Part shown: in pieces, positions 11,916-64,000 of the stretch
Layout of the letters: each line of letters starts with the position of its first letter
How positions within the stretch are numbered: the stretch's first letter is position 1
Assembly (NCBI RefSeq): GCF_965363235.1
Contig: NC_134838.1
Location: 16,834,441-16,898,440 of the forward strand
From: Mytilus galloprovincialis
Lineage: Eukaryota; Mollusca; Bivalvia; Mytilida; Mytilidae
DNA: 64,000 nucleotides
Direction: 5' to 3'
Notes under the pieces: generated by a model
Database searches by the model: none
What the model was told of the DNA's origin: nothing
What the model saw: only the letters and a program-made list of their open reading frames with translations
Made by a program: the position numbers and the translations under genes

Positions 11916-13344
11916 GTTTTTTTTTTTTTTTTAATAGTTTTTGACAAGTTTATATTCAGATGGAATGTGTGAAATCAGATAAAAATGTAACAGTTAACGA
12001 CCATGGATTCAAAACGGATCACAATTTTAATTCCATAGCAATTACACAGAGAGTTTGGGGAAATAGGGGGCGTAGAAAACCGTTAGCCACAACATACACC
12101 TTCATTTTCGTGCTTAGAGAATTGCATTCTTCGTACACGAATTTCTTATAAAAGTCATCCCTCACAAGCATGTATGACCCTTTACAGAGGACTACTTGTA
12201 GAATTATACAAAGACAAAAAATATTGAACGTTTAATGTTCATCTAAATTTTAATTTTCTATTCTATTATGTTAGGTCAGGAGAAACATCTTAAGTCCTTT
12301 GATAGTAGGTTTTTCATTGTCATGCCTTTTGAAGTGATGAGAAATTTGGTTTAGTTGAAAGAAGTAAAAGTGTGTCAAGAAAACGCATTTGGGATTTTTT
12401 TTATAAGGAAATACACTAAATAACTGTGGAAAGTGTTGTGACATGTGGTGCTCTTTAACCAAATCCCGCTTTTTAATCTTTGTTTCCAAATTTCCACATT
12501 TGTCCGTTCTTTTTCTCAGACTTCATCTTCCTATCCCAAATCCCCCCAAAGTCAATGTGGGAAATAACAGAAGCATTTTATATTCTTCACAAGGAAATAA
12601 CTGTGACCACTTTCTGCAGTCAAGCCAAGTTTGCCAAAAAATAATATTAGATAAACCATGAAAAGCCTTTCTTCATGAGTCATGATACTTTGATTATCTT
12701 GTCCACCATTTATTCAGCTATATCGAGATGAATTTGGTAGAACTTGAGTTCTCCCCTAATTAACCTTTTTATTCCTCTTTTTCTTGCAGTTTCAATATAT
12801 TGTTCGTAAAGATTCCCTTTGTTAAAGTTAGATCATTCTATAAGTTCGTACTATTGAAATCGCGTGTCAAGTTCTAAAAACTGGAAAATTTATCAAAAAC
12901 ATTAGTACCGCTGTTTTCATCCGTAATCCCATCATTAGTGATTGGATCACTCGGTCCCCTGGTGCCGCAGAAGATAAAATTACACGCACGCAAACACATG
13001 GGCCTTCGGGTTTTTTTTTAATAGTAATTTGTCATTTTTTGTCTTGTGGAACTAATTATAAATCTTATTTATAGATATTTTCATGATCATTACTTATGGT
13101 TACTGTTTCCCTCTATAAAAGTTTAAAGTTTAAATATGTAAACGCCTCGAGATCTTTCGTCTGAATACCTTTTCATCTGTCTAAACTAAGGATTAATTCA
13201 CTGATCAAAAGAAATTGTCACTCTACCACATAAGGGCTTGCTCATGTACATGTATAGTTTGCTTTTATTTTTTAAAGAAGAGATCAACAAATTGAATATA
13301 GAAAAATAGATAACCTTAAATAGCTTTATTTTGCAAAACTTTTA

Positions 13345-13475
13345 GAAATTTTTGGTCCTCAATGCTCTTCAATTTCGTACTTTATTTTTTTTTTATTCGA
13401 GCGTCACTAATGAGTCTTTTAAAGAAGGAACGCGCGTCTGGCGCAAATATAAAATGTCAATCCTGGAATTTATGA
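13345..13475 (-). repeat. GGTACC-ended dispersed repeat, partial
   Basis: It carries GGTCCTCAATGCTCTTCAA, CGAGCGTCACTAATGAGTC and ACGCGCGTCTGGCG in the same order as the inverse of 41519-41660. Confidence 0.75.
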
Positions 13476-13930: not shown

Positions 13931-15269
13931 TATGATGAATTTATTCATATACTGCCCACATTAATTATGATGAATATTCTAGCAAAAATATTATTATAAC
14001 AAACTACGTTGTATTTCATCCTTACTATGAGTCCTGAACAACTTGCTTGTTTGTCACGTTTGAAAATAAACTTTTACGCAGTAGTTTTGATTTGTTGTAC
14101 GTTCCCTTTATATATGTATCACGAATGAACATAGATTCAAGTTGACATATTTCATAGCTACGAAATAAGTCCGGTTGACCCGGTCTTTCACCCCAAAGGT
14201 GACTGAAGAATAAAAATAAGGTCACTTTTGGTCTTTTTCGACCGGCAGTAAAACTCTTGCAAAGTGGGGGGTCCGGTTAGGTGTGTCGTATACATGTAGA
14301 AACGGTCAGAATGTAAAAATTAAATCATATGCCTCGTGTAAAGAGAGTGCCACGTTATCTGCACGTGAAGAAACCTTGATCTTTGAAGTGCAAGGCAAAT
14401 GTTTAGTCCCTATCCATTATATCCCTATTTTCAAGTAGCAGTCCAAATTTCCCGACCGTAATCATGACCGGCCCCTGTGACAGGACCTAACTATTGTTTT
14501 ATTGTTAATGTGTTATCGTCCTGAAAGTGCATGCATCTTTTACCTCTGGACGATTAGAAACCAGCAATCAACAATAAAACAATTACGGTCTTTCAAAGTC
14601 AGACTGTCAAAAAATCACTAACACAATGTCCGAAAAAGCTTGTGACAAATAATGAGGCATGTGAGTTATGTTAATCAAGAATTATTTAAAGGATTTCAAT
14701 ACATATACAAACCACTAAAAAATAAAAAATAAATTCATAATTAATGACAAATTTTACTGTCATAAAAGCTGATACTATTATTTTTTGGGGGACTGGTAAT
14801 TTCTAACATGAATAGCCATTCTTAATCGAAATTTTTTTTAAGTTGATTTATTTTGTTTCCGTCTATACTTAGTTAATTATGAATAACAAAACATTCATAT
14901 CAACTAAATATTTTAATGCCCATACAAGTGTGGACACAGATGAGTGTGGATAGTATGTTTGGATGTTTGACAGTGTTTTATGATAAATGTAGTTCTATGA
15001 TTTTCCTATATGTGTTATTAACTGTGTTGCACGATGACAACCAACCTGAGCATTAGGAGTGTTGTTTATTTTATATTTAGTTTAGTTTTTATGTTCAAGA
15101 CGGGCATGGAAGAGACACTAATTGCATTAGTTACCAAATGATTATGATAGAATATGTTCCACATCTTTGATTTTTGATACATTTTATAGCTAGGAGAGCA
15201 ACACATAATAGGATCAATTTTTCGTGATTTTTTTAAATTGAGAGATGATATCTGAGAACATGATATAAG

Positions 15270-17069: not shown

Positions 17070-20000
17070 CCTTTGCTATCTTTTGGTGTGGTTCAGAGGT
17101 CAATAAAAGTGCAGATTATAGGGGTGTGTTTGGATATACTCCTGAGGCGTTCTATGGTTACCCATAGGTACCTATGGTTTGATATTTTGTGTGTAAAATA
17201 TCAAACTATAGGTACCTATGGGTAACCATAGGCCGCCTCAGGCGTGTATCCAAACACCCCCAGCGTTACAACACAGTGCCTTTTTTTAATTTTTCAATCT
17301 CTATCTGATGATATGCCAAATTTTCTGTAATTTTTAAATGGTGTTTAACCACTTACACACAATTTTGTTGTGATATACTTGAATTCCGTGTTTCCAAGCA
17401 TTGTATCATGTTTTCCTTACATATCAGAAGTGTTGAATTGTCAACACACAGTTCTTATCAAAACAACAAACATTTTGTAAGCATTCTGTTGTAACTAACG
17501 ATGATCAGTGCTGCTACAAACACATAAAAACAGACAGATTAGGGAGCTCTGCCAAACTCTTTATTCTATCAATATAAGCGTGCTTTGAGGATGCTTTACC
17601 TATTAACATTTCTGTCTATTTATATCTTCATTATTTTATTGCTCTACAAGACAAGCTGCATCTCTTATGATGAATATGATCTATAGTCTCTTCATATTAA
17701 CAAATGAAGCTACAGTACAATTAGTGAAGAGGGTAGCACTAAATCTACTAAATACTTTGTGAACCATGAGCAATATTTAGTGGTTGACCATTTGAAATAA
17801 GGTTGGTTGGTTGGTTGGATAGGGCGAGGGGTTTATAAGGAAAGAGATTTTTTTTCTTCTGACGAAATATAATTCATTTTAACCTTTTGTGAGACTAGCA
17901 TATTTGTGTTGTACTGAATTTACTTTCTCTTTTGTACACATTTAATTTATTTTTACCCTGTGTTGGAGATGCAAGGTTGATTTCAAAAACCTTTGACACT
18001 ACGCTTTAATATCAATTTGCATTCAGATACTGCGAGCATTTTAATGCGGTATCATATCTTATTATTGCTACTAGGTTTCAAAATAGTTTTGTGTGAACCC
18101 ATCCTGGTTTTCTTACTACGGTATCGGATTCGGTCCGGAAAATGTTAATGTGAAACACAAAAGGGCCTGGAATGGTGTGATTTAAGACAACAGCATTGTT
18201 CTGTATGAGTTCTATATAATGTTGAATTCGTTGTTTTTACGCCAAGCTGGCAAACAAACTGGACCTCGTTATTTTAGTGATATTGACATGCTTTTCCTGT
18301 ATTTATTTTTATATATAATTCTCTATTGTTGTCACACGTGTAAGAGTGTGTAATTATGGAAATATTTTTCCACCTGCATGAGTTAAATATAAAGTATTAT
18401 TTCACACCCTGACCGTCTATTTACTGACTATTATCTATAAATATTTTCCTGATAAAAAGACGTATATGTGTCAATAGGACATCATATAAAAAAGAAGATG
18501 TGGTATGATTGCCAATTAGACAACTATCCACAAAAGACCAAAATGACACAGACATTAACAACTATCGGTCACCGTACGGCCTTCAACAATGAGCAAAGCC
18601 CATACCGCATAGTCAGCTATAATAGGCCCCGATAAGACAATGTAAAACAATTCAAACGAGAAAACTAACGGCCTCATTTATGTAAAAAAATGAACGAAAA
18701 ACAAATATGTAACACATAAATAAACGACAACCACTGAATTACAGGTTCCTGACTTGGGACAGTCACATACATAAATAATGTGGCGGGGTTAAACATATTA
18801 GCGGGATCCCAACCCTCCCCCTAACCTGCAACAGTGGTATCATGCCCACCTCGAAATATCCTATTTCCATATAATAATGATACAAATATGTGATAGGATT
18901 GTCAATGACCATTCACCAATATTCACGTTGATACGAAATACCAAAAGTACCCATACAACCTTCAACAATGAGCAAAGCCCATACCGTATATTCGGCTATT
19001 AAAGGACTTTTAGATTTGTGAAACAATTGAAACGAGATAACCAACGATTTGATAAATGACAAAACAATTAACTAAAAACATATATATAAGACCATCGACA
19101 TCCCACGAATTACAGGCTCCTGGCCAGAGACAGGCAAATAAAGAATGACTTGAAATGTAGTTTTGTGATTCAGTAATACAAGATTTTACACTTTATTTTA
19201 TAGGCTTCAAAGAAAAAGGAAAACGGACCAAATACAACTAAAAAATCTGACAAGGAAGCTGAAGCAAAGACAGATTCTAAAACAGAAGAGCCGAACAACG
19301 AGCAAAATAAGAAAGAAGAAGAAACAAACAATCAAACTGAAACGGAACCACCACCTAAAATGCCACCATTGAAGATGTGTATATGTGGTAGTGGAGGAGG
19401 TGCCCACTGTCTTGTTGGACTGGCGGCATCGCAACCAGATGTTGAAGTTCGAGTGCTCACTCTTCACGAAGATGACGCAAAACTATGGACGAAAGAAATG
19501 AAAAATAATGATTTAGTAGTTGTTATTAACAACAGAAATGGAACCTCGAGAGAAGTAAAAGCAAAGCCTGAAATCGTAACAAAGAATCCAGAAGAAGCCG
19601 TTGCCGGAAGTGATTACATATTCATGGCCGTGTCACCAACGTCTCATGATATTTACTTCAAAGCAATGGCACCACACGTGGGTAAAAACACCTTGATTGT
19701 AGGTTTACCTGGTTTTCCAGGTTTTGAATATCAATGTAGGGATATCGTAGGAGAAAAATCTATTCCCTGTACGCTGATGAATTTTAACTATTTACCTTGG
19801 GATTGTAAACTCCTTGAATTTGGAAAGAAGGTAGAAATTATAAATTTTCGAAGCTACCTAACTGGTTCCATGATTAGAGGTCGAGGGATTTGTAGAAGGC
19901 CACCGCTGATGACCCTCCAAATGCTTCACGGTGCAGAACCCATTTTTCGGCAATCGAAAAACCATCTGGAGTCTATTCTTATGTCTCATTCATATATTCG

Positions 20001-20619
20001 ACCAGCAATTATGTTTGGCCAATGGAATAGTTGGGACGGTAAACCCATCCCTGAAGCTCCTCTCTTTTACGAGACAGTAACAAAAGAAACAGCTGATCTA
20101 ATTTCTAAATGCAGCGATGAATGTGTTGAAGTAGCTAAAGCTATAATGGAGAAAAGTGCAACAAAGATTGATCTATCTGAAGTCAAACCGATCTTCGAAT
20201 GGTACCAAGAACTTTGTTCAAATGATGTTAACGTTTGTACAGATATGTTGACCGCACTCACAACAAGTAAATTTGATAAGGATGTAACGCACGAAATGAA
20301 GAAAGAAAAAGGAGGATTAGTTCCAGATTTCCATTGTGCAAGCTTAGCAGAAGACATACCAATGGGTACAATAGTAATACGCGCACTTGCTGATATTGTA
20401 GAAGTTAAGACGACAAATATTAATATGCTCATTGAATGGTGCCAACAAAAAATGGGGAAAGAATATATTATCAACGGTGAATTGAAAGGCAAAGATATGA
20501 AATCAACCAGATGTCCACAACAGTATGGGTTTACTACATTAGAATCAATTATAGCGTGTCAGATAGGATCAACAACATTAGAATCAACTATTGCATCACA
20601 GATAGAATCAATAAGCTAA
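16328..20619 (+). CDS. Opine dehydrogenase (octopine/alanopine/strombine type), two coding exons, 472 aa
   Basis: The enzyme joins pyruvate and an amino acid with NADH oxidation, regenerating cytosolic NAD+ during anoxia, as known for marine molluscs. Exon 2 (19204-20619) follows an acceptor TTTTATAG and stays open in frame. The ATG at 16328-16330 is followed at once by a donor GTAAGT, so splicing gives ATG|GCT in phase 0. Residues 2-53 are a Lys/Glu/Asn-rich extension absent from typical 400-residue family members. Residues 57-90 are the Rossmann start with GSGGGAH (63-69). The C-terminal octopine-dehydrogenase domain carries SHSYIRP; its His263, counted without the extension, falls near catalytic His212 of scallop octopine dehydrogenase. 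The last residues hold a 13-residue direct repeat (TTLES at 445 and 458). Amino acid substrate cannot be told. A later start at Met54 is the alternative. Confidence 0.9.
16992..17067. repeat. (TA)n microsatellite
   Basis: About 37 uninterrupted TA units lie in the opine dehydrogenase intron, 54 bp before the palindromic element at 17121. Confidence 0.95.
17121..17260. mobile_element. Palindromic foldback element, 140 bp
   Basis: Almost the whole element is one hairpin. The ends GGGGTGTGTTTGGATA and its inverse, CCTGAGGCG/CGCCTCAGG, and a long stem centred on GATATTTTGTGTGTAAAATATC pair with few mismatches. The stem contains GGTACC on each arm. It lies in the opine dehydrogenase intron. Confidence 0.9.
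18482..18845 (-). repeat. Penelope-like element 3' tail, 5'-truncated copy
   Basis: This is the inverse of 28890-29240, from GAAGATGTGGTATGATTGCC to the GGGATCCCAACCCTCCCCCT block. Similarity is high, so it is fairly young. It lies in the opine dehydrogenase intron, antisense, about 360 bp before exon 2. Confidence 0.9.
18935..19130 (-). repeat. Older Penelope-like tail fragment
   Basis: CAACCTTCAACAATGAGCAA, CATACCGTATATTCGGCTAT, AACAATTGAAACGAGA and GAATTACAGGCTCCTGGC match the tail in order but with many changes. It abuts the younger copy at 18482-18845. Confidence 0.75.
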
Positions 20620-25536: not shown

Positions 25537-28500
25537 TTACAAGGGTTGATGAAATGTATACTGACAGCAACCTTCAGGTTCAGATTTCCCTTCTTGCCCA
25601 CAACACTGCCATATCTTTATCTTAGGGTCGTTATTTCCATGGAGATGGACTGGTTTCCGGGGATGATAATAACACGTGCCAGTATTTTGACCTGGGACCA
25701 GTGCTTTGTGACAATACCGGCATTCTTGTAGGCGTTTCCTTTTGAATCGTTTATTATCTATTTGTTCATCTTGGCCTGTTAGGTATTCGGGTCTTTCATC
25801 TGCCAGGATTGAAAGCTTCTTTTTCAACTTTTCATTGTCGCCATTGGCTTTTGCAAGTGCTGTATCTTTCATGTCGTGTAGTTGCTCCAGAAATTTCTGT
25901 TTGATTTTTTCCGTTTGCAACTACAAAAAAATAAGCCTCATACATTTATATTAGCTAAATGCATAGGGATATTTATTTAAATTGATAACACATAGTAGAT
26001 GTCGATGAATACCAGTACCATGACATTTTCATTATCCAAAACATTCGATTTGACACAATAAAATCTTTAAATAAAATAATTTAGAATCCTTTTTCAACTG
26101 CGTTTAGAAGTTCAGTACAAATATGCAATCAGTTATGTGGAAAATATAGAACATCTCGCTGTGTGGTCTTTTTTAAGTTTCAAAATTGTTTCTAATCAGT
26201 TAAAAACAATAACAAAAATATTAAGGTACCGATTTTCAATAACAACTAGTAACTTTTATATCGTCATTTAATTAATGACTCTTCAGTGATGCAGATGACT
26301 TAAATAACTGAAAAGTCCCAAACCTAGTAATACCAATCGAATTACTGACTTCTGGGCCGCGGTAAAACCCATGGGAAAACAGTCCACCAGCAGATGTTGT
26401 ATATCAATACAACTAAATTGTTCTTAAAGGGTGCAGGTAATGATGGTAAGGTTTATTTGACTCATATTGATCCCAATACATTAAAATAATTACATTGCAT
26501 GAATGTTTCATTATGATACGTTATTTTGATTGGCTAACAGCAATTTTATGTCCTTCTGACATTGATATTCATTACACAATGAAATGTAACATTCATGATG
26601 ACACAAGGTCCCCCAGTAGAGTGCACAGGTACACAAAGAAAAAGTTGATAGAAATCGTGTTTTCATGATCATAGCCAAAAGATGTAATTATATGTATTGT
26701 AATTCCACAAATACAAAGCGTTGACCGTGTGCACATTTTTTTAATGAGAAGTGCTTCATACAAAATGTGCTTCGGTCAACGCTTCTAAACCCAAATGAAT
26801 TTACAAAAAAGAAATTTATATTCTTAATTAAATGTTTGGACGTGATAACATGATTTCTCGGTCGTCCGACTGTCTATATCACTCTGCAGCTCTTAAAATA
26901 AAATTGCATTATACCACGGGTTTGTGAAGTCAATTACGTTGACCTGACCTTATGAAAATAATTTAGAAGTAAATAATAGAGTACATAATACACCTATTTC
27001 CAGAATAAGAAATAAACTTCAAATACTTTCAAAGGGGTTTGTGTTTGTACCGGCCGACAAAGCAGCCAACAATGTGATGGTGATATGCCGTAAATACTAC
27101 ACAGACGTTCTTAAAAATGAAATTTTAAATTCATCTACATTCAAGTCCGTCCGCTCCACAGAGAGTGATATAGTTAACAAGCATATCACAACCACAGGCT
27201 TCTTCTGAACATTTGAAGGTCCCTACTATGTATTGGCTACCTAAACTACACAAAAAACCATTTAAATATCGTTTCATCTCGGCCTCTAGTAAGTGTTCTA
27301 CAACTAATCTTTCAGTGTTCTTAACTAGTTCATTAACTACTATTAAAGAGCTTATCATAAACTATTGTAATAAAATTTATGAACATAGTGGTATAAACCA
27401 TTTTTGGAGTGTAAACAATTCTTTGGATGTTTTAGATAAATTACGTGCTTTTGATGGTCCTTTTGATTCTGTTAATAGTTTTGATTTTTCTACTCTTTAC
27501 ACTACACTTCCACACTATCTTATTAAACAAAAGTTTTCCTATTTAATTAAATGGTCGTTTGGTAAAGCTGAATGTAGATATATTTGCTGCAACTCATTTA
27601 AAGCCTTCTTCTCTAATGAGAAAGATAAATATGCTAGATATACTTATTGGAGGTGTGATGAGATGATTGAAGCTGTTAATTTTCTCCTTGATAATATTTA
27701 TGTACGTTTCGGCAACAAAGTTTATCGACAGGTTGTAGGTATCCCCATGGGCACTGATTGTGCCCCTTTAATAGCAGACTTGTTTTTGTACTGTTACGAA
27801 TCACAGTTCATGACTAAACTCAGTAAAGACCCGTCGAAATTTCATTTAATTGATAAATTCAATAACACTTACCGTTATCTTGATGATATTTTTTCGTTAA
27901 ATAATCAAGAATTTTCTCAATATACTGTGGAAATTTAACCCAAGGAACTTACTTTAAATAAATCAAATTCATTCGGTAATAACTACTTCCTCTCCTGGAT
28001 TTAGATATTTCGGTTTTAAACGAGAAACTCCACACTAAAACTTACGACAAAAGAGACGATTTTTCGTTCCCTATTGTTAATTTTCCATTTTTAGATGGTG
28101 ATGTTCCTTTGGCACCATCTTACGGTGTTTATATTTCACAACTTGTTCGCTATGCCCGCGTCTGTTGTGACGTTTTTGATTTTAACGAACGCAACCTATG
28201 TATTACTGGTAAATTATTAAACCAGGGATATCGTTACCATAAATTACTTAAAACCTTTACAAATTTTTTCCATAGATATAAAGATTTGGTTTTGAAGTTT
28301 GGTTGCACCTGTAGAAAACTTATTTCAAACGGGATAGCACATCCTCATTTTTACGGAAATGTTGTTAACCGTGCCCGGAAATTTAGAAATGATCCATGTA
28401 AACTTGTCGCTCCTTTAAATAAACTTATTCTAAAAGGTTACCTATTCAACATTGAATATTGTTTTTATTGGTATAAATATTGATTTTGTTATCAGTAAAT

Positions 28501-31500
28501 TAAAAGTTAACTAAATATTACTAGTATGTTATATGCATATACATATTCATGGATCTACAATCTGTCGATACCTGTAACTTGGCATTGCACAAGGTCATGA
28601 TTTTCTCTGGCTGTTTATGACGCCTTTACACTAAATCCATGGGATGTTGGATGTGTACGGATTGATAGTTTAGTCTTAGTTGCATGATTTTTTTATTAGT
28701 TGTTAGTGGCTGTGAACTAGCTGTCAGATAACTGCGAGTACTCTCAGATCTGTTCATTGTGTCTTTTTGTGTCGGGATGTATAAGTACCGGGTCACGTCC
28801 ACTTGTATTTTTGTCCATCTGATGAGTTAAGCCTTTTTCAACTGATTTTTATAGTTCGTTCTTATGTTGTACTGTTATACCACTGTCCAAGGTTAGGGGG
28901 AGGGTTGGGATCCCGCTAACATGTTTAACCCCGCCACATTATTCATGTATGTGTCTGTCCCAAGTCAGGAGCCTGTAATTCAGTCGTTGTCGTTTGTTTA
29001 TGTGTTACATATTTGTTTTTCGTTCATTTTTTTTTTTTTTTACATAAATAAGGCCGTTAGTTTTCTCGTTTGAATTGTTTTACATTGTCTTATCGGGGCC
29101 TTTTATAGCTGACTATGCGGTATGGGCTTTATTCATTGTTGAAAGCCGTACGGTGACCTATAGTTGTTAATGTCTGTGTCATTTTGGTCTTTTGTGAATA
29201 GTTGTGTCATTGGCAATCATTCCACATCTTCTTTTTTATATTAATAACTTTGACTCACTCGACAAAAAACTTCATATTGTGAATCGCAGCTAATATTCTG
29301 ATAGTCGGTACTAATCTATCCGTCCAAAATTGCATCGAACGTAACATAATGTACATCTTTATATAGTTGTACATGTATATCACAACACAATTATATAATA
29401 GTTATCAGAGGTACCAGGATTATAATTTAGTACACCAGACGAGCGTTTCATCTACATAAGACTCATCAGTGACGCTCATATAAAAAAATATATAAAGCCA
29501 AACAAGTTGAAGAGCATTGAGTGATCCAAAATTCTAAAAAGTTTTGGCAAAAACGGCGAAGGTGATCTATGCCCACTGTGTCTAAACCACACCGGCAAAA
29601 TTTGTTCGGACTCGATGGTATCTAACATCGGGCACAATGACGGAACATCAATAGACAGAAGAAAGATAGATTTCTCCTTATTTTCTTATTTTTTTCATGA
29701 TATCAAAAAATATATATGTTCATAAACAACTATTTTCTATTGTGATATGCAATATTTTCTACAACTGTTCTATATTAACGGAGAAATAAGTAAAAATGCA
29801 TGTCAAAATGACGAATTGAGTGAACCTTGCCTCGAAATTGTTTAATTTCTCGTTAAATTGTTCACATTGTACGAAAAGAAAGGTACGGGAAGATAGATAC
29901 TGACACGAAGACTGCAAAACTAGTCATTATGAGCATCTCAATACTTGTATCTCTGTGTATGGAACGAAAGAAATGGGTCATGTCAAAATGAAACTGGCCG
30001 GTTTCGTCAATGTTTACCACCCGGTTTCGTCATAGATTTCACAATGCATAATCCGGTTTGGTCAAATAAAAAAAATCATAATCGCATTACATTATAATTG
30101 ATTATTTAACTTCAGCGTTGAAAAGGAGTTTTGTGGGTCGTTGGAAAACAACTTCTTTCACCGAACAACGGCTTATTATTTATATGAGTCTCAGATTCAA
30201 ATAAATAATAAGCAAACACTTGAATTCCTACTCTTATAGAACACAAATATTTTAATTTTACTTTGCATTCCGAAATTTTTTAACAGGAGATTGAGGTTAA
30301 AGCTCTCTAAATATGCGTTTTCTATATGAGTTATGGGAAAATATGTTGAACTTGAAATTAAAATTTACGGTCTTAAAAATCGAAACACACAATTGATATG
30401 TGATTTTCTCGCACAAAAGGATGGGCACCTTTATAAGTAATCTAATCATTCTATGTATGTAATCTTTTCTATCATCGTTAAAAATAAATCTTCTAAAGGA
30501 TAAACGTTGATATTAAAAGAAATGTATGCATGCATAATCGACATAGAATGAATTACAACTACCATGCATTAAAATAAAATTTATTTATCACTAATTGTAA
30601 CTATACTGCTATGTACAAATTAGTATAATAGTCTCAGGTCATCGACAAAATTCAATAATAATTATTTTGTTAACATTACTAAAAAAAAAAACGGGTCTGT
30701 ACTGTCGCCATTGTGTTATGATGATCGTACACTGACGTTGGTCAATATATTTTGACAATATATACGGACAGACGGATTCAGTTTATTTCAAAGTGGACGT
30801 GATTCGAACAGCTTTTACATACCGCCGAGTTGAACAATATTTTGATTATTTTTTGCTTTAAAAAATCGTTAAATACATGAATCAATATAGTTCTGGCAAC
30901 CAAAGGTGGGGTCGGGGCGTGCAACCTATATACGTCTTCCAGATTCGCCACTTATCTTATAAAGTGTATGTCCCTGTTTTCTTATTTCTTACAATATTTT
31001 AATTCGGTATACACTTTATGGCCGAGTTCACTTGAAACTCTCGAGTTAACTTTACTAACTCGGTTTCAACAAAACGATTTTACTGGAACTACTCGAGTTA
31101 ATCCCTCGTACCCTGGTTCCAACCCTCACCGAGCCATGGTTAAATTCGAGAAACTCTTGAATGACGTCAAACCCATGAGAATATTTTATGTTTTATGCTT
31201 GGTCAGGGCCTTACCCTAGAGTTACTTAGAGTTGTTCCGAATATCAACTCTAGTGCGTTCACGTGATAATCTATTTTATCGTCCTTCCCTCTGCCTATAT
31301 CACCTTGCTCTGTTGCTCCGTAATTCTCGTATCAAGACTTCAAAACGAGACCAGGCATTATCAGCTACGTCACAATGTGAGAGGAGAAGTTCTTTTATGG
31401 TTGGGGCCTGTTATCTAACTCCCACGTGAATAGATATTTTTCGTATCACACCGTACGGAGTGTGATATGAAAAAGTGATATCAAAATTACGTTAATTTGA

Positions 31501-34500
31501 TGATCCCTAGACGATTTTGGTAAATTTTACTTTAAAAAATTATAAATATCTGTCATAAGTAAACAAGTACGCGTTGCAAAGAAAAACGGCCGTAGCAACA
31601 CAACTCGCAACAAATAGGCCACGCACATACAACTTTTTGCCATAAGAGAAATAGGTTTAACAACTTGTGAGAATTAGATATCGCTTGATATCAACTCTCG
31701 TTATTTAATTTCAATAATAATAAACTCGCCATAGGCTCGTTTATTATTATTGAAATTAAATAACGAGAGTTGATATCAAGCGATATCTAATTCTCACTAT
31801 AGGCTCGTTTATTATTATTGAAATTAAATAACGAGAGTTGATATCAAGCGATATCTAATTCTCACTCGTTATGAAACCTATAATTATCAGCGACGTCACA
31901 ATGCGAGAGGAGACGTTATCAAGCTTGCTTTTGTCAAGTGTAAAACTGTGTTAGGGAGAAAGAAACGACCAGTAATAGCACGATAAAAAGATAATCGGGT
32001 TTTCTTCGTATAGATATCGTAAAATATCAGCCGCTCGACACAATGTGAAACTTTTTAGCTCGTTCGCTACGCTCTCTCGCCAAAAAGGTTCACATTGTGG
32101 CTCGCGGCTGATATTTTACGATATCAATGTGTAGAAAACCCGATAATCTATACATGAAGAGTTTCAAGTGAACTCGGCCTATGAGATAAGTGACGAATTT
32201 CAAGTTCTTTTTTATCGATTTTTATACATTTTTTTTCAAATATATATAAAAGTTTAATAGCAAAAATGATAAGGAAGACAAAATATACAAATAAGTCGAC
32301 TTGGTCGACATCCTAATAAAACTTATTGACCTTTAATTACGAGTTGTTTTTTTTTCCATGCATTTCTTTGCGTTTTTACACGCCCGTCACAATTTTGACA
32401 GGACGTATTATTGTATACATCCGTCTGTCCGCCCACCTGTCCGTCCGTCCGTCCGTTCTTTCATCCGTCCGTTCCTCCATCTATCAGTCATTCGGTCCGT
32501 CCGTCCGTCTATCTATCCGTCTGTCCGTCTGTCCAGCATAAACATGTCGCACCGTAACTTGAGGACAGCTTATCTTATTTCTTAAAATTTAACATAGTTA
32601 TTTCTTATAATGGTCAAACGATCTGTAAACCTTTTAGTGAAAATCAAATTAAATCTTTTTGAGTTACAGGAAATGTAAGTGAAACAGGAGTGTGGGTTTT
32701 TTTAACATGTCGCGCCATATCTCAAAAACGAAGTATTATAACTGCATCAAACTTTACATACTTCTTAGTTATATAAATCTTTTAAACTTCTGTTTACCTT
32801 TTGGTGATGTTTAAAATTTTGGTTTAGAGTGATTGATTTTTTTTTTGGTAAAACAAAAAGGGGGGGGGGGTCCACTTATTGCGATGTATCTCAAAACCTA
32901 TTTATGATTATTGTTTAAATTTTACTCACTTCTTATTAATATTAATCTTAATATCTGTATACTTTTTGGTGATGATTCAAACTTTTATTTTAGAGTTATT
33001 GAGTTTTTTGTAAAAAAGAATAGAGGTTTTCACATGGTGCGCCTTATCTAAGAAACTATTTCTGATTATTGCATACAACTTCACTCACAAGACGACGGGC
33101 GCATCATGCGGTCATGGGCGCAGCTGTTTATTGCCAATTACGGAACAAAATTCCCCTCTTTGACAAATTTAAAATTAGTTTGAAGTTAAGTGAAATAAGG
33201 GATACACCTTTCATTAGGAAACTGTGTATTACCATAATTACCTATGTCCAAACATGCCCGTTTAAAATAGATTTTAACACGCCAAGTTTACTTTACAATA
33301 AATATATATTAAATTCTCGGAAGACAATGTTCAGATCCGTGTCAACGTTCCTTTTTATTAATTTGTTTGTTTAAAAAAAAAACAAAAAACCGGGTGATAT
33401 ATAAAGACGAAACCGGGTGATTGTGTAGTAAACAACATTGACGAAACCGGTTTATTTTAATTTGACATGACCCTTTTCTTTCGTTCCATACACAGAATTA
33501 CAAGTATTGAGATGCTCATAATAACTAAATTTGCAATCTTCGTGTCAGTATCTATCTTCCCGTACCTTTCTTTCCGTACAATGTGAACACTTTAACGAGA
33601 AATTAAACAATTTCGAGGCAAGGTTCACTCAATTCGTCATTTTGACATGCATTTTTACTTATTTCTCCGTTAATATAGAACAGTTGTAGAAAATATTGCA
33701 TATCACAATAGAAAATAGTTGTATATGTATATATATTCTTTGATATCATGAAAAAAATAAGAAAATAAGGAGAAATCTATCTTTCTTCTGTCTATTGATG
33801 TTCCGTCATTGTGCCCGATGTTAGATACCATCGAGTCCGAACAAATTTTGCCGGTGTGGTTTAGACACAGTGATGCCTTGGATAATTATATATAGATATA
33901 AGAAGATGTAATGGAGCAGTGCATATTTTGATACTGTGAATTCAGTACATTTTAACGTTTTAAGATTTTGGACAATGTAGTTGTAGTTAACAGATTTTAT
34001 GAAGCTTAATTTACATATTTATTTTGATTTAAAATTTCATTTTTTTTTTTTTTTTGCAAAATTACGGTATTGACTGATTTCACGGTTCACTGCAAAAGTC
34101 ATAGTTGGAGCACCGCATGGAGTCCTATGGACACATAATATGTAATATATTTTTTTAAGAACTGTTTTATTTTTGTCTAAGAGTTGTGTATTTTCTTCGA
34201 CTTGAGGTTTGTAACTGTTCCATTGGTATTCATTTGTATCTTCTCTCCCTTTTCTGCTTATAGGTTTGAATTGCCAGACAAGTTGATATACCTCTTTTTT
34301 TTTTACTCAATCAAATGATATTTGATACAATCTATCAACGATAAAAGTGAATATTTTATGCTCTCATGGTTTGTTTAAGAAATAAAAAGATAATATTGAC
34401 ACTGTTATTTACTGCTCAGAAACACCAGGCTTTAAAATAACTTTTATAACATATATAAATTAACTGTTTATAACTAGTTTCTGTTTGTATATAAACCTAA

Positions 34501-38180: not shown

Positions 38181-38463
38181 CACTGGGGTAAAGCTGATGA
38201 CCGTAACTGCATTCACGGTCATCCCAAGATGTCGGACGAAAAATTAGGTCAGTATTTGTATCGTCTGTTTAAGTGTTCCTTTATCATTTTCTTTATAAAG
38301 CATACATTGATACGATGTAAATTTATAAAAGATTCACATTGAAATCACAAATTACTACCGAGAAATGTGTATTAAACAGACAAAACAAATACTGACCTAA
38401 TTTTTCGTCCGACATCTTGGGATTACCGTAAATGCAGTTACGGTCATCAGCTTTACCCCAGTG
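38181..38463. mobile_element. CACTG-ended inverted-repeat element, 283 bp
   Basis: The ends CACTGGGGTAAAGCTGATGA and its inverse TCATCAGCTTTACCCCAGTG continue as near-perfect arms of about 95 bp (including AGATGTCGGACGAAAAATTA). ATAATA lies on both sides, which could be a target duplication of up to 6 bp or chance in AT-rich DNA. CACTG ends suggest the CACTA/EnSpm or Chapaev groups. It has no coding part. Confidence 0.88.
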
Positions 38464-40590: not shown

Positions 40591-41518
40591 ATGTTTAACA
40601 ATCCGAATTGTTATTACTCGGTTATTGCGTTCGTGTTGGGCAGACAAACATTTCAGTTAAATCCCCTTCTTGCACATTGAAACACTTAGTGTAACCTTTG
40701 ATACAAATACAAAGTTTTCTTATAGGCAATATATTTTATCAATAAATGCTGATGGTTTTCTTTGTATAAGATGTTTATATTCACTTGTTTTCGTCTACGA
40801 AAGTCTGTATTTTATGACCTACTATCAGACTTAATCGCGTTAAAAGTCATAACAACAAATCAATTTCTAATTTTCAAGAACTTTCGGTCATGTCCTATGC
40901 AAATATCTTGCGGATTGTAATTTTATATTGAGTATACATGACGCTTAAGACAAACTGAACGAGATTTGCCGTCTTATCAGAACCTTAGGCGAACGATAAG
41001 ACGTCAGGCTTGTCATAAAATCAATATAAAAGCCAACTGTACAGCAGAAAAAAATAACATTCTGCATAACTTTATCACTTTTGTATTGTAAAAATATGAT
41101 AGCAATATTGGAACAAAATTGTTCAATTAGTTTTGAATTGATCAGATATCATTTTCTCCTATATAAAAAGATAAGAATAATTTCATTACAGCTAAAACGA
41201 TGTGAAGTTCCATGAATAAAATGATACCAATCGCTTATTCAAACACACGAAATGGCAATTGTGTTTGAAATCGAAAAGCTTTGTGAATAGCAGTTGTGCA
41301 ATTCCAATGAATTTCATTAAAAAAGGGGAAACATTTTGAAATCAATATCTTGTATTTTTCAAGTTAAGGTATGATAGAATATGAGTATTAAACCAAACAC
41401 TCATGCATAAAGGGTAATATAATCAATTATAATTTAATTAAAAAATATGTTACATAAACCAATTAAGTCCATGGATACAAACATATGCACATTTGTTTTA
41501 TTATCATTATCATAATGA

Positions 41519-41885
41519 TAATAATTATCAAAGGTACCAGGATAATAATTTAATACGCCAGACGCGCGTTTCGTCTACATAAGACACATTAGTGATGCTC
41601 AGATCAAAATATCTATAAAGCCACACAAGTACAAAGTTGAAGAGCCTTGAGGACCAAAAATAAAAAAAAAAATGTGCCAAATACAGCTAAGGTAATCTAT
41701 ACCTGGGATAAGAAAATCCTTAGTATTTCGAAAAATTCAAAGTTTTGTAAACAGGTAATTTATAAAAAATAATATTCATGTCAACACCGAAGAAATGACT
41801 ACTTGGCTGTTGATACCTTCGGGGACGAAACGTCCAACAGCAGTGGTATCGACCCAGAAGTGTAAATTGTTTATCAAAGGTACCT
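41519..41885 (+). repeat. GGTACC-ended dispersed repeat, reference copy
   Basis: The unit starts at ATAATTATCAAAGGTACC and ends at TTTATCAAAGGTACCTT, so its two ends are the same word in the same direction. Inside lie CCAGACGCGCGTTTCGTCTA, TAAGACACATTAGTGATGCT, GAAGAGCCTTGAGGACCAAA and GGGACGAAACGTCCAACAGC. The last block is a small palindrome, GGACGAAACGTCC. No coding part. Confidence 0.85.
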
Positions 41886-51107: not shown

Positions 51108-51400
51108 AAATAAAGGCAGTAGAAGTATACCGCTGCTTAAAACTCACAAATTGATTGAGAGAAAACAAGTCGGGTTTACAAACTTAAACCGAGGGAAATA
51201 AAGGCAACATTAGTATACCGCTGTTCAAAAGTCATAAATCGATTGAGAGAAAACAAATCCGGGTTACAAACTAAAACCGAGGGAAATAAAGGCAACAAAA
51301 GTATACCGCTGTTCAAAAGTCATAAATCGATTGAGAGAAAACAAATCCGGATTACAAACTAAAACCGAGGGAAATAAAGACAACAAAAATATATTACTAG
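51108..51400 (-). repeat. 88-bp tandem array, 3 units plus a partial one
   Basis: AAATAAAGGCA units start at 51108, 51196, 51284 and 51372. Each contains AGTATACCGCTG, TCATAAATCGATTGAGAGAA and AACCGAGGG. Outside the array the same block occurs once at 51690 and, inverted, at 7800 and 9900, so a block of a dispersed repeat has been tandemly amplified here. Confidence 0.95.
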
Positions 51401-61545: not shown

Positions 61546-62811
61546 TCCCCTTGATTTGTCTTCTTAATCGATTTTTTGTAGGTAAATTACTATAATATAT
61601 TTAATATGTGTAATTTGAGATATCAATATCATGCACAGATTAATTAAAGTCAAGATTTAATAATGTTTTACTGCAACAGCTGTTTTCTATAGTCAACAAC
61701 ATATTATGAAGTGTGATGTAAAAACCCGCATGCACAAATAACACGTACATACATTTAATTGCAATGTCAACAGAAACTTATAGTACTTCACACAATTGCA
61801 ACATATGTTCCCCTTTCGCTGATCGACTTATCTGAAATAGGACTGACGAAAACGAATTTGATATTGTTTAAAGTATCAAATGTTTTAAATCTCTTTCAAA
61901 ATATGAAAATTATATCAAAACTGAGGGAGCTCATGCTTTATTCGATATTCAACGAACATGATATATTGCTATTACATATTGTATATGATTTAAAATTGTA
62001 CTGTTGTCCGTTATGGGTGCGACATTTTCTAATTATCAACTAAAATGTACTATACCAACTTTAATTGGAAATCTACAAGTCTTTTGGAAGTAAATATGAC
62101 GATGTTATTCATGACAGCATATAGATTTATAATGTCATGCTGTTTTTCATTGACTTTCTTTTCCTGGTTTAACCCTCAGTTGCAAATTAATCTAGACCCG
62201 TTTGCCCTCGTCGATAAAAAGCCGGTAATGTTTAAGTGCTTGCCAAAGAGATCTTTATAATCATTAAGCTGATTCTTATAGACATAATTACGTAGAGTGC
62301 ACAATTTACCGATGCCTGTTTCAGAAACTAAATCATTTTATTTGAAATTAATGTAAATTTTCAATCGTACGAAGTGCGTAAAAATGTAAATTTTAAACAT
62401 TATAGTTGAATCTGTTTTACGTCTATGTGTTCGTTTTTAAAATCAGAACGGATTTTCTTCAAAACAATTTTATATATCTTTACATTTTAGCACACAATCA
62501 TGAAACATTGTACAACATCCATTGTGCACTTAGTTAAAAGCTTACTATCTTTGATAAGGTTAACAACCACTGGGTCAATGCCATTGTTGATGACATTTCA
62601 TTAATAATCATCAGATCATCAGTAGGCAAGTCAACACTTCCCTGTAAATTAACAACTCAAAAAACTTTAACACAAACGTTACACTATAATTTATGTACCT
62701 TCTTGAATAAATGACCATAAACTGATTTTGCACATCCTTTTTAAGATTTTTTTTAAGTACAATGACCTTCAACTTTGTAATTGATTCGGCCTTCCAATTG
62801 TTTACCTTTGA

Positions 62812-63135
62812 GTGATTTTGATGAGTCTTTCGTAGACGAAACTCACGTCTGGGGAACTATATCATTTCCCTGGTATCATTGATGATTCTTACAACAACAC
62901 ATATGGTGCTACTGCTGTTGAATGTTTCTTCCCCAAGGGGATAACCATCTAAACTTCAGCAATAATGTGCTGAGAGGCAATCTGTTGGTGGGATTACATT
63001 CTGTAAATAAAATGGTCATTTACCTTTTAAATCATTAGAAACACGTTAGATTTAGGTACAGATGACCGTACATATATGTTTTGTATATTTGGCACAACTT
63101 TTTTGTGTTTGAAGCACTTCAATTTGGTACGAATT
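62812..63135 (-). repeat. GGTACC-ended dispersed repeat, joined partial units
   Basis: GATGAGTCTTTCGTAGACGA, AACTCACGTCTGG and CCCTGGTATCATTGATG are the start block of one unit (read inverted). The next bases carry the opposite end of a unit (ACTGCTGTTGAATGTTTC, TTCCCCAAGGGGATAACC) and later TTTGGCACAACTTTTTTGTG. The order fits two units head to tail. Confidence 0.7.
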
Positions 63136-63289: not shown

Positions 63290-64000
63290 TTGAGTAGCTG
63301 GGTTTTTTATCAGATTTGTCCATTTGTTCACTTATTTTATAGCTTTGTTTCCGTACGATTAGCCCATTATTAGACTCATCGTCTAGTTTTGTTTAAGTCG
63401 GATTAGTCCATCATACCACCGATCATTTAGAGTTGCGTCTTTTGGATTTGTCTATCCTCTCGTCCATCATCTATCTTTGTTTATGCATGCCAGATAATTT
63501 CATCACCGCACCGATCATCTAGCTTTGTTTCTGTCGAATTATTTCAAAATCTTATACATTGCCAAGCTTAGTTTTTGTTAGATTTGTCTACCGGCTCACC
63601 CATCGTCTAGTTTTGTTTCTGTTGAATTTGTCAATTATCTCAACCGTCGTCTATCTTTGTTTCTGTCGGATGATTCTATCATTTCACCCATCGTCTATAT
63701 TTGTTTCTGTCGGATGATTCTATCATTTCACCCATCGTCTATCTTTGTTTCTGTCGGATGATTCTATCATTTCACCCATCGTCTATCTTTGTTTCTGTCG
63801 GATGATTCTATCATTTCACCCATCGTCTATCTTTGTTTCTGACGGATGATTCTATCATTTCACCCATCGTCTAACTTTGTTTCATTGGATTTTTCCATTA
63901 TCACATGCATCTTGTTTTTGTCTGATAATCCCTTTATCTCTTCCATTCTTTAGCTTTGTTTATATTGGATTAGTCCATTGTCTGATCTACCGTATAGCTT
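63290..64000 (+). repeat. 44-bp minisatellite, runs off the window edge
   Basis: From about 63640 to 63890 units of 44 bp (TTCTGTCGGATGATTCTATC, ATTTCACCCATCGTCTAT) are nearly identical. To both sides, from about 63290 and up to 64000, the same unit continues in decayed form with CTTTGTTT, TCGTCTAG and RATTAGTCCAT. Confidence 0.93.

Follow-up and report, generated by a model that had tools for sequence, protein, structure and literature searches.

Which transposase would have moved the long inverted-repeat element found in this stretch of Mytilus galloprovincialis DNA (64,000 nucleotides of contig NC_134838.1, GC 32.5%, hereafter "the window")? The element (positions 29574-33872, 4,299 bp) is real and ordinary in kind: a non-autonomous DNA transposon with long terminal inverted repeats (TIRs). 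A first-pass annotation, made from the letters of the sequence, had read it as a relative of the Transib and RAG-like transposons, and our analysis leans slightly the same way, towards service by an enzyme of the CACTA-Mirage-Chapaev-Transib (CMCT) clade, from its Transib/RAG1-like branch. This source is the leading one, unproven as it is; the kinship is plausible and rests on a single copy. The ends of the element and the target-site duplication (TSD) around it were delimited as follows:

29569-29573, plus strand: left TSD, ATGCC; only length 5 fits, and two related host-repeat copies hold a single counterpart
29574-30042, plus strand: left TIR, 469 bp, starting CACTGTGTCTAAACCACACC, from the alignment of the arms
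29574-29580, plus strand: terminal heptamer CACTGTG, one base from the heptamer of the recombination signal sequence, CACAGTG
33394-33872, minus strand: right TIR, 479 bp, from the same alignment
33873-33877, plus strand: right TSD, ATGCC; only length 5 fits

The inverted ends, previously put at about 490 bp, were long as described and slightly shorter than stated (469 and 479 bp when aligned). The arms were identical at 446 of 467 aligned columns (21 mismatches, plus 14 gap columns), and one of the two ungapped blocks, of 308 nt, was the longest inverted pair of the window among the 25 longest of 52. Mismatches were absent from the outer 134 columns (p = 0.0007 if the 21 were evenly spread over the 467) and numbered 0, 0, 3, 0, 1, 5, 5 and 7 per 60 columns from the tip inwards. 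The perfect outer 134 bp and the loss of identity further in suggest how the ends became longer than usual: a copy of one end may have replaced the other, or homogenisation may have spread from the tip. CACTGTG was the outermost heptamer at both tips, read inwards, as had been noted earlier, and CACTGTGTCTAAACC was the inward reading common to both ends; the inverted match ended at the tips, where the next base outwards was C on one side vs. T on the other.

Short motifs were repeated in and beside the arms:

29998-30064, plus strand: three direct copies of CCGGTTTCGTCA (starts 29998, 30021 and 30053, with 0, 0 and 1 mismatches)

Two of these copies lay in the left arm, at its inner end, and the third fell in the core, directly beyond the arm. 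In the right arm the motif occurred at 33405 and 33439 (up to 1 mismatch), and only one other place in the window, 15630, was within one mismatch of it. A further motif, CATGTCAAAATGA, had two corresponding places per arm; the inner of the two in the right arm differed from it at two bases. Such motifs are reminiscent of the subterminal repeats of CACTA elements, and may speak for a different source within the CMCT clade: a non-autonomous CACTA/EnSpm or Chapaev element, with a 5-bp duplication atypical for its group. That source is unlikely on the evidence of the TSD, given below.

Insertion was examined through the flanks and through a host repeat that the element interrupts:

29395-29573, plus strand: left part of the host repeat, target of the insertion; related copies cross the site at 41518-41711 and 1415-1580
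33878-33885, plus strand: apparent continuation of the host repeat to the right of the element (TTGGATAA vs. TGGGATAA)

Flank lengths of 2-12 bp were tested, and an exact repeat was found at 5 bp alone (ATGCC), in agreement with the duplication first reported. Among 200,000 random draws of equal spacing, an exact 5-bp flank match arose by chance in about 0.19%, and one of any length from 4 to 10 bp in about 0.9%. When CAC..GTG pairs spaced 200-8000 bp were collected, with a match required at 12 or more of the 14 end bases, the window gave 39, and the pair belonging to this element was the only one with a 5-bp duplication. Five other window copies of the host repeat had alignments reaching the insertion point. 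Two of them ran across it with a single 5-mer: 41518-41711 on the plus strand (ATACC) and 1415-1580 on the minus strand (ATGCC). When the flanks of the element were joined with one ATGCC they read GATCTATGCCTTGGATAA, and the crossing copies read AATCTATACCTGGGATAA and CATTTATGCCTGGGATAG. Of the 8 bases to the right of the junction, the first copy shared 7 and the second 6 (a score of 7 or more was reached at 0.04% of window positions); beyond these 8 bases the homology to the right flank fades. The two crossing copies are relatives, and therefore not independent witnesses. The other three stopped within the 5-mer (13306-13475 and 62707-62891 after AT, 2152-2211 after ATGC), so that two of the five copies speak for an empty site and three are silent.

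Since two host-repeat copies cross the junction with a single 5-mer, the element was very probably inserted with a true 5-bp duplication, and the exact flank repeat together with these empty-site copies fixes the tips well. On the same two observations a chance palindrome and an assembly fold-back were rejected. The broader claim that there is no transposon here, but an inverted duplication made by chance or by the assembly, can point to the single copy in the window and to the three host-repeat copies that stop within the 5-mer; against the exact repeat and the two crossing copies it is hardly credible.

The combination of tips and TSD was compared with published features of the candidate superfamilies. 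CMCT elements mostly have CA..TG termini and TSDs of 2-5 bp (PMC12730594). Within the groups compared, the Transib/RAG-like branch is alone in pairing CAC tips with a 5-bp duplication, and leads for this reason: a CAC start and 5-bp TSDs are common to RAG-like and Transib elements (PMC7204232, PMC8355894, PMC4411706), as the first-pass annotation had stated. Both were found here, the duplication at one insertion and the CAC start with seven heptamer-like bases, a weakly informative likeness. The CAC..GTG termini also suit a CACTA/EnSpm or Chapaev source, being invariable in Chapaev (PMC4079192) and present in CACTA (PMC12730594, PMC6004678). In print, however, TSDs of these groups measure 2-4 bp (3-4 bp in Chapaev, PMC4079192; 2 bp beside CAC..GTG in CACTA-type miniature inverted-repeat transposable elements, PMC6004678), whereas lengths 2, 3 and 4 failed at the one insertion available here and the 5-bp length is backed by the two related host-repeat copies. 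Another CACTG-tipped element of the window counts in favour of this rival: 38181-38463, an inverted-repeat element of 283 bp (92-nt arms, 96% complementary, tips CACTGGGGTAAAGC), has flanks that repeat ATA or ATAATA (3 or 6 bp), not 5 bp. CACTG tips alone therefore mark no single family here.

Tips of hAT elements are usually of the CAG.. or TAG.. types, and in tip type the present element differs from them. The 8-bp duplication typical of hAT was not seen at this insertion. A hAT5-type element, from the hAT group with 5-bp duplications, is a very unlikely source, though it shares the TSD length found here (5 bp in hAT5 families, PMC12730594). Two further points favour it: a mollusc survey placed hAT second among DDE/D superfamilies in richness (PMC10294476), and published hATm elements have TIRs as long as 417 and 575 bp (PMC6004678), so that long TIRs do occur in hAT. 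Judged from hAT tips in general, a C as third base is nevertheless unusual for the group, and the hATm tip is TAGGGTG (PMC6004678). The element might also belong to a superfamily not yet described, in which CAC..GTG tips and 5-bp duplications go with very long TIRs: the combination of such tips and duplication with TIRs of about 475 bp was absent from the literature passages compared. The passages sampled are few, aberrant ends can occur in non-autonomous elements, and a new enzyme would be postulated without positive evidence; this explanation is quite unlikely.

In the proposed mechanism the enzyme would be supplied from another place in the genome, bind both of the near-identical arms and cleave 5' of the CAC at either tip. 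The excised piece would then be joined to the target with a 5-bp stagger, repair of which would leave the ATGCC duplication, as in cut-and-paste transposition. With protostome RAG-like elements (PMC7204232) the element shares CAC, T at position 4, a 5-bp TSD, molluscan hosts, the existence of non-autonomous copies and an AAAC block near the tip; it differs at positions 5-11, off the consensus, in the place of the AAAC block (positions 11-14 here vs. 8-11 in the consensus, a shift of 3 bp), in its ends of 469-479 bp, and in that no RAG1L or RAG2L was seen here. AAAC fell within positions 8-17 in 5.9% of random draws. With Transib it shares the CAC tip, the seven heptamer-like bases and the 5-bp TSD (PMC8355894, PMC4411706), as well as symmetric TIRs, which are usual there (PMC8289069), but nothing of the Transib transposase was seen here; this likeness was judged from descriptions of tip and TSD rather than from full Transib tip strings. 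The tip of lancelet ProtoRAG, CACTATG, is identical at 6 of 7 bases, and its 5-bp TSD has a GC bias (ATGCC is 3/5 GC in DNA of 32.5% GC, n = 1), whereas its 27/31-bp spacers differ from the long near-symmetric ends found here (PMC8289069). Besides the tip, ProtoRAG has a second conserved block, TR5. CACTGTG is among the top heptamers in RAG recombination assays, for example first for a TT spacer start (PMC9723617); the bases after CACTGTG here are TC, not TT.

RAG-like elements had been said to occur in bivalves, and this is borne out: they are complete in two oysters and non-autonomous in the pearl oyster Pinctada imbricata, and the mussel M. philippinarum has one broken RAG-like gene pair together with unpaired, possibly intact genes (PMC7204232). 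For protostome RAG-like TIRs, extended within-species similarity has been noted (PMC7204232). A literature search gave no description of the present element among the matches listed; Repbase and most subscription journals were outside its scope, and the result is not proof of absence.

Several results weigh against the Transib/RAG-like source. Over its first 11 bases the tip matched the protostome RAG-like consensus CACTWMCAAACKTYKBB at 4 positions, and over all 17 at 6, the fit ending after CACT; it matched the AanRAGL 13-mer (string from PMC9435367) at 3 of 13. The rule stated by Repbase places non-autonomous elements by equal TSD length and likeness of bases 1-11 with one mismatch; likeness to either of the two published strings compared fell short of this. 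No V(D)J-type signal was found, as the bases matching the nonamer numbered 3 of 9 with a spacer of 12 bp and 2 of 9 with one of 23 bp. The earlier remark that a clear nonamer is lacking was thus correct (the best match was 5 of 9, whereas shuffled sequence most often reached a best of 6), though a nonamer is not expected of invertebrate RAGL elements or of most Transibs (PMC8289069). The closeness of CACTGTG to the V(D)J heptamer is true as first described and carries little further information for a tip that begins with CAC: among the 1,270 CAC words on both window strands, 7.2% were within one base of CACAGTG, so that the likeness is weak evidence. The published ends compared are short (13-bp TIRs, PMC4411706; about 43-47 bp from ProtoRAG blocks, PMC8289069). 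In the mollusc survey Transib accounted for 1 of 14,275 DDE/D elements (PMC10294476). This rarity lowers the prior, though oysters and a mussel are reported to carry RAG-like genes. Finally, the element is known from one copy, and the 5-bp length could be read at a single insertion. Of the relationship first proposed, the long TIRs, CAC..GTG termini, 5-bp duplication and apparent lack of autonomy stood, and the tip beyond CACT was off consensus.

Were the transposase RAG1/Transib-like, the group ancestral to V(D)J recombination would gain a bivalve family whose ends are near-symmetric and unusually long and whose tips differ from the V(D)J heptamer by one base; otherwise the element just adds to the many non-autonomous DNA transposons known, in a mollusc genome rich in repeats. 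The stronger claim, of a new Transib/RAG-like lineage in a mussel-like bivalve, with near-symmetric, nonamer-free, CACTGTG-tipped ends of about 475 bp and living autonomous copies elsewhere, is doubtful.

Other copies were searched for within the window and in non-mollusc collections. BLAST of both ends against the window returned the two arms only, and a scan of the window for the first 15 bases of the tip, allowing up to 3 mismatches, found the two tips only. Exact end patterns had 0 matches in viral contigs and in prokaryotic genome contigs; control patterns from host repeats also gave 0 in the viral contigs, which thus appear to contain no mollusc DNA of this kind, and the viral zeros are therefore uninformative on copy number. 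Neither the left end, compared by BLAST with plasmids, nor the whole element, compared likewise with phages, had a match.

The interior of the element comprised:

30043-33393, no strand assigned: core, GC 34%, without a protein-family match above cut-off in six frames
30943-32198, no strand assigned: probable second element nested in the core, with inverted ends ATTCGYCACTTATCT..; boundaries tentative
31667-31866, no strand assigned: palindromic and tandem 68-bp units in the nested element
31989-32149, no strand assigned: hairpin with 71-nt arms in the nested element

When the whole element was scanned against Pfam in six frames (stops as X, E up to 1), no family was found above cut-off, the sole match being a sub-threshold FtsL_2 (E 0.12); the element is thus apparently non-autonomous. 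Of the listed frames inside it (60 aa or more), the longest ran 112 aa from stop to stop and had no Pfam match, and no RNA family reached the gathering threshold. In the nested element the left arm was broken by about 58 bp and the flanks were TTCCAG and TTCAAG (5 of 6 identical).

Bacteria of the 'Candidatus thioglobus' type include mussel gill symbionts. A Transib is listed from 'Candidatus thioglobus' in a figure legend (PMC9435367), where host contamination is possible rather than a bacterial origin.

Elsewhere in the window, two open frames at 27174-28483 had by eye the look of a Penelope-type reverse transcriptase (PMGTDCAP and YLDDIF, which we take to be motifs of that enzyme), with no Pfam match at 0.001. 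Stretches of 28450-29255 recurred in part near 15268, 18484, 36642, 39968 and 58423. An octopine dehydrogenase-like frame of 471 aa (19204-20619) matched the octopine dehydrogenase structure 3c7a, presumably from a scallop, with E 1.5e-135. Taken by themselves, this frame and the repeats of the window would make a bivalve host likely, perhaps a mussel. Tandem arrays were present at 51108-51393 and 63301-63978, with spacings of 88 bp and 44 bp.

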